From assembly GCA_010032545.1 (NCBI GenBank), contig RGPT01000017.1, forward strand, positions 1-33,253: DNA of 33,253 nt, given 5' to 3'. Numbering within the stretch: position 1 is the first letter of the stretch; each line of letters opens with the position of its first letter. The position numbers and the translations under genes are program-made. Origin of the DNA: Alphaproteobacteria bacterium (lineage in GTDB: Bacteria > Pseudomonadota > Alphaproteobacteria > Reyranellales > Reyranellaceae). Of this stretch, positions 3,281 to 33,151 are shown in pieces. The notes below the pieces were generated by a model. That model saw only the letters and a program-made list of their open reading frames with translations, ran no database searches and was not told the DNA's origin.

Positions 3281-5014
<1,734 letters not shown>

Positions 5015-5083
5015 CTAAGCGAACACTGCGATGGAAAAAGGGGGAGGCGGCGACTGGGTGGTGGGATCGAGCGAACGACAAGC

Positions 5084-5120
5084 GACCCGCATGGGCCCCG
5101 GAACACCGGGGCGGCGGATC
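5084..5120 (-). promoter_or_regulatory. Candidate attenuator hairpin upstream of leuA
   Basis: On the minus strand, right at the stop of the leucine-rich leader ORF, there is a two-tier hairpin. The inner stem GCCCCGG/CCGGGGC has a TGTT loop; the outer stem GATCCGC/GCGGGTC has one G-T wobble. The 3' outer arm (GGGTCG, 5083-5088) can instead pair with CGATCCC at 5063-5069 with one bulged base, so two exclusive folds exist, as attenuation needs. The hairpin is not followed by a clean T-run; the nearest T5 is at about 5035-5039. It could work by Rho-type or non-canonical termination, or not be a terminator at all. Confidence 0.45.
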
Positions 5121-5154
5121 AGCCAATAAGTCGAAGCGTCGTCAGTCGCAGCAT
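5119..5154 (-). CDS. Leucine-rich leader peptide upstream of leuA (candidate)
   Basis: An 11-codon ORF plus TGA reads MLRLTTLRLIG, with leucine at positions 2, 4, 7 and 9 (CTG, CTG, CTT, CTT). It lies 140 bases upstream of leuA on the same strand, and its stop abuts a strong hairpin. This is the layout of amino-acid biosynthetic leader peptides, where ribosome stalling at the regulatory codons decides the downstream fold. There is no well-placed Shine-Dalgarno, but the inferred promoter puts the start of transcription about 4 bases before the ATG. A leaderless leader ORF has a precedent in Sinorhizobium trpL. The gene is too short to judge by coding statistics; the case rests on composition and position. 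Confidence 0.5.
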   Translation of the reverse strand: MLRLTTLRLIG

Positions 5155-5164
5155 GATGGAGACG

Positions 5165-5193
5165 AATTTCCTCGATTTGATGCGTCCCGTCAA
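5165..5193 (-). promoter_or_regulatory. Candidate promoter for the leuA leader
   Basis: On the minus strand TTGACG (5193-5188) matches the -35 consensus at five of six bases. It is followed after 17 bases by GAAATT (5170-5165), a poor -10 match. The predicted start is near 5158, just before the leader ATG. The -35 overlaps the stop codon of the upstream methyltransferase gene, so leuA need not depend on that gene's transcript. Confidence 0.35.
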
Positions 5194-6020
5194 CCCGTCG
5201 CGCCGGACGGCTTCCGCAGCAGGAAACTGTAGTAGACCATCTCGCCGCTGGCCAACAGAGATGGAATGCGGGTTCCTTCGACGCCGGTGAAGACGTCGGC
5301 GATGGCCGAGAAAGGACGGGAGACGATGCGTCGTCCGCCAGCCCGGCGGCGGGCACTGTCGCGATGCAAGGCCTCCACGACATTGGCAGTGATGTCGTGC
5401 TCGATAATGGCTTCGAGGCCGCTCTCGGCTATCGCGGTGTGCCAATCGGCGATTTCGTGCGTGAGGCGCAGGTCGGTGTAGTGGAAGTGGCCGCCGGGTC
5501 GGAGCACGCGCTTCACTTCGGCGAAAAACCGGCCGATCGACGGATAGCAGAAGGAAGATTCAACGTTGATGACTGAATCGAAACTCGCATCGGAGAACGG
5601 CAGACTCTCGGCGTCGCCTTCTTGAAAGTGCAGCGAATCTAAGCGGTACTGCCTGTTGCTGAATGCCACCGCCTTGACGCTGAGATCGATTCCAACCAGC
5701 CGGGCGGGCTTCAGATAGCGCGCGACGTACGACGCGCCTCCGCCCCGCCCACTGCCGACCTCAAGCACGTCGTGGCCGGCAACCGGCGCCAAGGTCGCCA
5801 CATGATGATAGAGCGCGATCGGGTAGCGCTCGGCTTCGTCGGCTGGCAGCAATTCGAGCGGGGGCACGCCGACCTGCAAGTCGGCATAGCCGTAGTTCAT
5901 CAGGGTCCACCAGCTGATGTCGCCGAAGCGGGAGGCCAAGAAGTCGAAGAAGGTGCGCCACATCGCCCGGCGCAACGAAGGTGTCCGGTTGAGGACCCAC
6001 AGAAATGCGTCGGCGATCAT
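5190..6020 (-). CDS. Class I SAM-dependent methyltransferase, similar to mycobacterial phthiotriol-dimycocerosate methyltransferase
   Basis: 276 residues. SAM-binding motif I is VLEVGSGRGGGASYVA (about residues 84-99), with the acidic residue after strand 2 in VGIDLS, then DAESLPFSDASFDSVINVE (motif II region), and VKRVLRPGGHFHYTDLR after it. The pattern of GGGASYV, the NVESSFCYPSIGRFFAEV stretch and GVEGTRIPSLLASGEMVYYSFLL closely recalls the mycobacterial phthiotriol/phenolphthiotriol dimycocerosate O-methyltransferase family, from my memory of that family. Alphaproteobacteria do not make those waxes, so the substrate here is probably another hydroxylated lipid or small polyketide; I cannot name it. 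It is divergent from the cyclase gene, with 143 bp between the starts. A purine-rich GAGGAGGGGGAG lies about 11 bases upstream of the ATG. Confidence 0.8.
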   Translation of the reverse strand: MIADAFLWVLNRTPSLRRAMWRTFFDFLASRFGDISWWTLMNYGYADLQVGVPPLELLPADEAERYPIALYHHVATLAPVAGHDVLEVGSGRGGGASYVARYLKPARLVGIDLSVKAVAFSNRQYRLDSLHFQEGDAESLPFSDASFDSVINVESSFCYPSIGRFFAEVKRVLRPGGHFHYTDLRLTHEIADWHTAIAESGLEAIIEHDITANVVEALHRDSARRRAGGRRIVSRPFSAIADVFTGVEGTRIPSLLASGEMVYYSFLLRKPSGATG

Positions 6021-33066: not shown

Positions 33067-33151
33067 GCCCCCGTGGCGGAATTGGTAGACGCGCCTGACT
33101 CAAAATCAGGTTCCCCAGGGAGTGTTGGTTCGAGTCCGACCGGGGGCACCA
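33067..33151 (+). tRNA. tRNA-Leu(CAA)
   Basis: 85 nt including an encoded CCA. The acceptor stem is GCCCCCG (33067-33073) with CGGGGGC (33141-33147), with discriminator A. The anticodon arm CCTGA-CTCAAAA-TCAGG gives anticodon CAA, reading UUG. The D-loop has TTGGTAGAC, the T-arm GGTTCGAGTCC, and a long variable arm (TTCCCCAGGGAGT) marks it as class II, as expected for leucine. UUG should be a rarely used leucine codon in this GC-rich genome. Confidence 0.97.

Follow-up and report, generated by a model that had tools for sequence, protein, structure and literature searches.

The leuA gene of a Reyranella genome (Alphaproteobacteria) lies behind a short, leucine-rich leader that we read as a leucine-responsive translational attenuator, with a probability of roughly 0.6. 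Translational attenuation fits this leader better than a classical terminator does. Control at the level of translation initiation is favored by relatives with shorter leaders and by a copied cassette in front of a TauE/SafE gene. For the long leader of the window itself (the whole stretch of 33,253 nucleotides that was analysed), our confidence in the translational route is moderate.

Leader ORF and promoter upstream of leuA

In the window, leuA occupies positions 3281-4978 on the minus strand and encodes 565 amino acids. In view of what is known of the family, we take its product to be 2-isopropylmalate synthase. The leader ORF, 36 nt in length, lies at 5119-5154 on the minus strand, with its ATG at 5154-5152 and its TGA stop codon at 5121-5119, and the distance from its ATG to that of leuA is 176 nt in this long form. 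It encodes the peptide MLRLTTLRLIG, in which four of the 11 codons specify leucine, as the original prediction had described it; the Leu codons are CTG, CTG, CTT and CTT. The leuA Shine-Dalgarno (SD) sequence, GAGGAG (4986-4991, minus strand), is found in all 35 long leaders examined.

The leader ORF is preceded by a -35 element, TTGACG (5188-5193, minus strand), and by a -10-like element, GAAATT (5165-5170, minus strand), which are separated by a 17-nt spacer. The -10-like element ends 10 nt 5' of the leader ATG. TTGAC recurs at about the same distance in other Reyranella leaders, while the -10 position reads GATTGT, GAAGTT or TATTGT in relatives. From the position of these elements we infer that the RNA would start about 2-4 nt before the leader ATG, in keeping with the earlier expectation of a promoter that places the start of transcription next to the ORF. 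A generic promoter scan, in which at least 9 of 12 matches were required, called no promoter between 4500 and 5800.

The -35 element shares bases with the stop codon of an upstream minus-strand ORF (5190-6020), which presumably encodes a methyltransferase, by the look of its sequence alone. The spacer contains the motif CAAATC (5174-5179 in the window), common to many Reyranella leaders; other leaders of the genus have the TATTGT form of the -10 element without CAAATC, and thus there are two promoter types for one leader. Elsewhere, the right end of the window holds a tRNA gene (33067-33148, plus strand). Inspection by eye of the DNA upstream of ilvB and trpE in the window's genome revealed no branched-chain or Trp leaders.

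Conservation of the leader and its rare leucine codons

Among 78 leuA upstream regions, which include the window and draw on the best 80 of 585 leuA loci, the same type of ORF was found in L001-L037, L058 and L072. The remaining regions belong mostly to more distant relatives. Within Reyranella, the leader peptide sequence is very conserved. A covariance model (R1), built from 31 leuA leaders that it matches by construction, was searched against the genomes with strict filters, under which weak matches are lost. It matched 62 of 75 genomes of the family and 61 of 65 in the genus, and all 62 best matches lie 110-217 nt upstream of leuA. The four genomes of the genus without a match also lack the 5' part of leuA.

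This type of leuA (E < 1e-100) occurs in 74 of 241 genomes of the class. Of 73 further leuA places in the class sample, 69 were read, as 29 loci and 40 fetched stretches, and a promoter-adjacent, Leu-rich ORF precedes leuA in 59 of these 69. When 167 leuA upstream regions were considered, a set that includes near-duplicate genomes and many near-identical sequences, 148 contained a Leu-rich ATG ORF at a leaderless distance from a TTGA-type promoter, whereas five dinucleotide-shuffled controls contained 6, 10, 10, 13 and 16 of 167. The gap between the -10 element and the ATG is 6-10 nt in 150 of 178 candidate ORFs, and the RNA is therefore predicted to start at the AUG or at most about 4 nt before it. 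The same leuA type is carried by records labelled Mycobacterium, Actinomadura, Gammaproteobacteria, Chloroflexi or Dormibacteria (L063, L065, L066, L069, L074, L075 and L078), and their labels or binning may be wrong; L066 has an Inquilinus-like double leader.

The leucine codons of the leaders are enriched in rare ones. In 60 leader ORFs from many genomes, CTT accounts for 41% and CTA for 18% of the 266 leucine codons, as compared to 8.6% and 1.2% of 325 leucine codons in seven window genes, a background taken from the window's genome stretch only. The sensor codons are thus rare ones, as far as one genome stretch stands for the others. The 60 leaders were hand-picked, several of them from a single genus, and regions without a recognisable first leader ORF (ORF1) were left out (e.g. 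L148, L150, L168, L172, L173, L176, L178 and L180). A short ORF with rare cognate codons upstream of a gene of the pathway, one of the marks of an amino-acid leader, is present. Given that a Leu-rich leader, predicted to be nearly leaderless, is conserved with its adjoining hairpin in relatives, the supply of leucyl-tRNA very likely tunes leuA, as was originally proposed, and we hold with high confidence that the leader is a leucine sensor.

The leader might instead be the binding site of a regulatory protein, as has been proposed for the actinobacterial LEU element, and the very high nucleotide conservation of the leader in Reyranella would suit such a site. However, the features that recur across the class are the ORF, its rare Leu codons and the hairpins; the sequence separating these features is free. 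Moreover, the enrichment of rare codons argues for a ribosome as the sensor, and we regard a protein site as highly improbable.

The stop-codon hairpin and the scarcity of terminators

The leader ORF runs directly into a two-tier, GC-rich hairpin, as predicted, and the outer stem begins within the stop codon. This stem joins GATCCGC (5114-5120, minus strand) to GCGGGTC (5084-5090, minus strand), and encloses the inner stem-loop GCCCCGG-TGTT-CCGGGGC (5095-5112, minus strand), in which 5112-5106 pair with 5101-5095 around a loop at 5105-5102. The length of this loop varies widely among relatives. One pair of the outer stem is changed on both sides in 3 of 40 sequences of one alignment (A1) and in 6 of 31 of another (A2). 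The fold of 5153-5050 has an energy of -44.7 kcal/mol (z -2.37; 5 of 200 shuffles were equally good), which taken alone is modest evidence.

In classical intrinsic-terminator attenuation, of the type known from E. coli leu and trp, this hairpin would be the terminator, and the leader ORF, the rare cognate codons and the position of a GC-rich hairpin directly at the stop codon all agree with such a scheme. The hairpin nevertheless has no U-run. The lone terminator-like site between 4500 and 5800 (5097-5084) equals the chance expectation of 1.0, in line with the lack of a T-run that had already been pointed out, and terminator-like sites between leader and leuA occur in 5 of 60 leaders against 2.3 expected from shuffles. 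The leader does not resemble a known leader family either: no Rfam family was found at gathering score, and a search of window positions 4900-5400 up to E 10 returned two unrelated families only. With U-run terminators this close to chance, premature termination at the hairpin, which the original prediction had considered, was not borne out, and attenuation of the classical type seems very unlikely.

The same scarcity bears on the idea that the main role of the leader RNA or of its peptide is in trans, as for Sinorhizobium rnTrpL/peTrpL. A small ORF of the leaderless type, with a peptide so well conserved in Reyranella, would fit this idea. As there is no terminator that could release a small RNA, however, a released trans-acting RNA has no support here. 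In addition, all 62 best matches of the model adjoin leuA and 18 further ones adjoin TauE, and in the TauE cassette the peptide drifts (e.g. MKRQTLRLKR in L217) while the pairing described below is retained. A role mainly in trans is thus the most remote of the explanations considered here.

Pairing elements of the long leader

In 40 long leaders, the first codons (element A) pair with a downstream element A', codons 5-9 pair with an element B', and the stop-codon hairpin is closed. Element A (GCTGCGACTG; 5143-5152, minus strand) corresponds to leader nt 3-12, and overlaps the start codon as well as the Leu codons at positions 2 and 4. Element A' (CAGTCGCCGC; 5047-5056, minus strand), about 70 nt from the leuA start in the window, is complementary to A or, alternatively, to the pre-SD sequence GCGGCG (4998-4993). 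A:A' consists of eight consensus pairs (nt 3, 4 and 6-11), each formed in 38-40 of the 40 sequences, while the pair of nt 12 is restricted to the window sequence. Element B' (GTCG; 5076-5079, minus strand) pairs with CGAC of codons 8-9 (5133-5130) and is invariant in the 40 sequences, and thus offers no evidence of covariation. For a further element, A'' (CCATCGC; 5028-5034, minus strand), the models of the unblocked leader propose pairing to GCGAGG (4993-4988) in the SD region; A'' is conserved, again without covariation.

The ORF and its hairpin are conserved in relatives, and compensatory changes were found in few pairs: most pairs of the long leaders are invariant, and double changes affect just 2 of 28. 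Because A, A', A'' and the SD are nearly invariant in the long leaders, covariation is unable to test them.

A different way to couple the leader to leuA in the long form would be Rho-dependent attenuation, in which a C-rich, G-poor stretch located between the hairpin and leuA would bind Rho and a stalled ribosome would alter its exposure or the pausing of the polymerase. The absence of a U-run terminator agrees with this, as does the composition of the 35 long leaders, with 45% C and 15% G at nt 80-120 and, in each leader, a segment of 40 nt in which C outnumbers G by 12-19. However, a stall would be expected to free A' within the C-rich stretch and hence to cause termination in starvation, which would be the wrong sign. 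Moreover, the leader is retained in the short leuA and TauE forms although the gene starts at +99 to +129, and there is little room for Rho in them. The composition itself is undecisive, since nt 75-100 are 34% C and 18% or 25% G in the short forms, as compared to 37% and 17% in the long form. On balance, we consider a Rho-dependent mechanism unlikely.

Short leaders and a leader cassette upstream of TauE/SafE genes

Translational attenuation draws its main support from relatives in which A' lies immediately 5' of the start of the target gene, namely those with short leuA leaders and 18 TauE copies. Eight of the 62 R1 matches are short leuA leaders, at 110-129 nt from leuA. In the four distinct ones that were aligned (L013, L018, L036 and L037), the leuA ATG follows the leader ATG by 110-129 nt and is directly preceded by A'. 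Thus, the leader pairs immediately 5' of the leuA ATG, where no clear SD was seen.

A second copy of the promoter and leader is present in 18 genomes, 99-115 nt 5' of a gene for a membrane protein. These copies were absent from the building set of R1. The membrane protein belongs to the Pfam TauE/SafE family, to which 2 of the 18 proteins were assigned by scanning and the other 16 by very similar first 70 residues. A nineteenth cassette (L225) was spotted by eye; in these 19 Reyranella genomes (L205-L222 and L225), the cassette stands directly before the TauE/SafE gene without a clear Shine-Dalgarno. In front of the window's own TauE orthologue (L223), no such leader was seen. For the TauE orthologues without a model match, upstream DNA was fetched for 20 of 47.

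We examined A:A' in an alignment of 22 sequences (18 TauE copies and four short leuA leaders) that had been made without reference to structure. In this alignment, 82.8% of the cells are paired, as compared to 75.7 +/- 1.6 in shuffled controls, and the covariation score is 0.196, as compared to 0.117 +/- 0.017; each of these scores was reached by 0 of 500 shuffles. Versions of the helix slid out of register attained at most 56.6% pairing and a covariation of 0.098. Two pairs differ between the groups in the same register, being A-U in the TauE copies and C-G or U-A in leuA, and one further pair varies within the TauE copies. On the other side, neither the doubly changed pairs (3 against 3.1 shuffled) nor the pair types (10 against 9.1) exceed the shuffles, and a single pair fails to form in 9 of 22 rows. 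The helix was selected after the alignment had been viewed, and the RNAalifold consensus of the 22-sequence alignment (A3) did not predict this long-range helix. The changes between the groups may be single events, and common ancestry of both groups can raise the score. With these caveats, the A:A' helix appears to covary.

A proposed model of translational attenuation and the modelled ribosome stall

On this basis, we propose the following course of events. As its position suggests, the promoter would start transcription at the AUG of the 11-codon leader or slightly upstream of it, and ribosomes would load at the RNA 5' end and translate the leader. With ample leucyl-tRNA, the ribosome would complete the leader and depart, allowing A to pair with A'. 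In the short leuA leaders and the TauE cassette, A:A' would directly close the initiation region of the next gene, while in the long form of the window it would leave A'' free to cover the leuA SD. When leucine is scarce, the ribosome would stall at codons 7-9 (CTT CGA CTT) and mask A, and the A' thus released would allow translation of the target. In the long form with a blocked leader, A' would take the pre-SD and the A'':SD contact would fall, which would free the SD.

The stall was modelled by blocking leader nt 1-33, the stretch that a ribosome would occupy if it halted with codon 7 in its A site. On blocking, the energy for opening the target start decreased from 9.6 to 6.3 kcal/mol in the 18 TauE cassettes, with a gain above 0.5 in 16 of them. 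In the short leuA leaders it decreased from 9.2 to 4.2 kcal/mol, in 5 of 5 rows, two of which are identical. The mean gain in the TauE cassettes was 3.27, as compared to 0.62 (-0.22 to 1.61) in 15 rounds with shuffled leaders, and that in the four distinct short leuA leaders was 4.79, as compared to 1.73 (0.3 to 3.9). A ribosome placed at the stop codon produced mean gains of 0.00 in the TauE cassettes and 1.26 in the short leuA leaders. In these models, therefore, stalling and not completion of the leader would open the target gene, and this would be the sense expected for a biosynthetic gene.

For the long leaders, the modelled stall rearranged the pairing without a general opening of the leuA start. 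On blocking in the 35 long leaders, A' leaves A (0.74 to 0.00) and moves to the pre-SD GCGGCG (0.14 to 0.88), and the A'':SD contact declines from 0.40 to 0.12. The wider leuA start region is not opened (12.7 to 13.9 kcal/mol; gain above 0.5 in 5 of 35), and the real gain of -0.23 falls inside the range of -0.64 to 1.11 obtained by shuffling in the 12 of 35 that were tested. The mean unpaired probability of the SD is 0.31 with or without the block, and the energy of the segment from SD to AUG changes from 6.42 to 6.05, being lower by more than 0.3 in 15 leaders and higher in 8. Over these 35 leaders as a whole, a stall is not predicted to open the leuA start directly, and this reading was rejected for the long form. 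In the window's own leader, blocking lowered the energy of the start region from 14.0 to 12.5 kcal/mol and that from SD to AUG from 6.39 to 5.60, a predicted effect that is small and slightly in the expected direction.

We also considered a universal, simple complement of the Leu codons in the downstream sequence. This crude complementarity was significant in 10 of 60 leaders, with a mean z of -0.35, and the candidate was rejected; we therefore make no claim of this kind for the class as a whole.

A second leader ORF in relatives

Outside the Reyranellaceae, the leader is commonly followed by a second one. Among the 54 other leaders examined, namely the 60 hand-picked leaders minus six Reyranellaceae-type rows, 40 have a second ORF (ORF2) with a pair of leucines and a start at +85 to +140. 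The mean spacing between ORF1 and ORF2 is 115 (sd 12), a value that depends in part on the range, since only ATGs at +85 to +140 were considered. Better evidence on the spacing comes from unrestricted counts of ATGs, which peak in the bins from +110 to +129 (21 and 13; the flanking bins hold 5 and 7), with a smaller peak of 10 at +210. The main peak is close to the positions at which leuA or TauE starts in the short forms. No second leader ORF was seen in the Reyranella leaders. In L139 (1387-1454) and L145, which belong to one genus, a single leaderless ORF of 36 codons with an ORF2-like end lies just before leuA, and L135 has a similar ORF of 18 codons.

ORF2 ends in a conserved motif (LRLxGGxRA and similar), with Leu codons and a hairpin at the stop codon. 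In 36 of the 41 leaders (out of 54) that bear this second motif, the frame that reads the leucines stays open between an ATG at +85 to +140 and the motif, as compared to 1 and 1 for the other frames, and ORF2 is thus very probably coding. Its stop-codon hairpin, in an alignment (A4) of 48 of the 54 prepared rows, is 82.4% paired as compared to 77.2 (sd 0.8) in shuffles, with a covariation of 0.278 as compared to 0.195 (sd 0.013) and at most 0.132 when slid; the doubly changed pairs number 7 against 5.3, a value reached by 42 of 500 shuffles.

When a stall in ORF1 was modelled in 40 leaders, the ORF2 start was opened by a mean of 3.4 kcal/mol, as compared to 0.56 with shuffled ORF1. The gain was positive in 35, negative in 3 and zero in 2, and it exceeded the leader's own shuffled mean in 34 of 40. 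A modelled stall in ORF2 had a mean effect of 1.21 kcal/mol at the leuA start in native sequences, with gains above 0.5 in 17 of 38 and below -0.5 in 4.

A covariance model of the second module (R2) had as its best match in the window the window's own first leader, at a weak score (E 0.025), which fits a shared origin without proving it. R2 matched 11 of 115 genomes of the class. Ten of the matches lie just upstream of known leuA places, and as all ten come from genomes used to build the model, they add no new members. The eleventh (G117, E 0.004) was rejected as a second module, the stretch being without any leader layout; the long ORFs there resemble, as we take it, the antisense of a chaperonin gene.

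These data tentatively suggest a class-wide relay in two stages, to which we give somewhat less than even odds. A stall in ORF1 would open ORF2 at a near-fixed distance (mostly 110-129 nt), and the Leu codons and hairpin of ORF2 would in turn gate leuA. The leader would be a portable unit: in Reyranella, ORF1 would gate leuA more directly, and the cassette would have been copied in front of TauE/SafE.

Relation to known leaders

The leuL attenuator of E. coli and the leucine leaders in Rfam combine rare Leu codons in a short ORF with a U-run terminator and an SD-led leader. The leuA leader shares the rare Leu codons, but not the U-run terminator or the SD-led leader. In rtpL-rtpA of Bacillus subtilis, uncharged tRNA(Trp) stalls the leader ribosome and the translation of the next gene changes. 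The conversion of a stall into a change in translation would be alike in the two systems, whereas the amino acid, the gap of a few nt between leader and gene and the phylum differ.

The LEU element of Actinobacteria is, in the available portion of its description, a leader ORF whose Leu codons pair with the leuA SD without a terminator (Seliverstov et al. 2005, PMC1262725). The window's leader resembles it in being a Leu-codon ORF before leuA with no terminator. According to the same portion of the paper, however, the LEU element takes the form of a pseudoknot whose base stem lies on the SD, and its authors regard it as a likely protein site; a leaderless start, a second leader ORF and a TauE copy are not reported in that portion (PMC1262725). 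The erm translational attenuators, including the two-leader ermBL/ermBL2, are similar to the scheme proposed here in that a ribosome stalled on a leader alters the expression of the next gene and that two leader ORFs are possible, but their signal is a drug and not a missing aminoacyl-tRNA, and the genes are unrelated, as far as the available text describes them (PMC8274638).

Within the Alphaproteobacteria, trpL/rnTrpL of Sinorhizobium meliloti is described, in the available parts of the reports, as an attenuator of transcription from which a small RNA arises (PMC10117765, PMC7298713). Its leaderless ORF in front of an amino-acid gene is of the type predicted for the leuA leader, but the leuA leader has no visible terminator. 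The Caulobacter ilvBN leader, as outlined in the available part of its description, has Ile/Val codons and a Rho-independent terminator (PMC4117421). It is likewise a branched-chain amino acid leader peptide of an alphaproteobacterium, and differs in its codons and its terminator.

Leader-peptide control, leaderless leaders, two-leader attenuation and, in Actinobacteria, pairing of Leu codons with the SD at leuA are thus already known. Among the matches listed in a search of the open literature, we found no account of this alphaproteobacterial leader family, of the second leuA leader or of the TauE copies, and an earlier prediction of the first leader in older attenuator surveys is possible.

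Biological implications

If these readings hold, a widespread family of leucine-sensing leaders would be present in a class with many environmental and plant-associated members. Control would be exerted at translation instead of at a terminator, with two leader peptides in series for one amino acid. The leaders bear on how amino-acid leaders function in GC-rich bacteria without U-run terminators, and on whether leaderless ORFs are favored through the part that the leader start codon would play in the lock. The TauE copies provide a functional lead for a poorly assigned group of transporters and, if the relay and the cassette are as proposed, the TauE/SafE transporter would join the leucine response.
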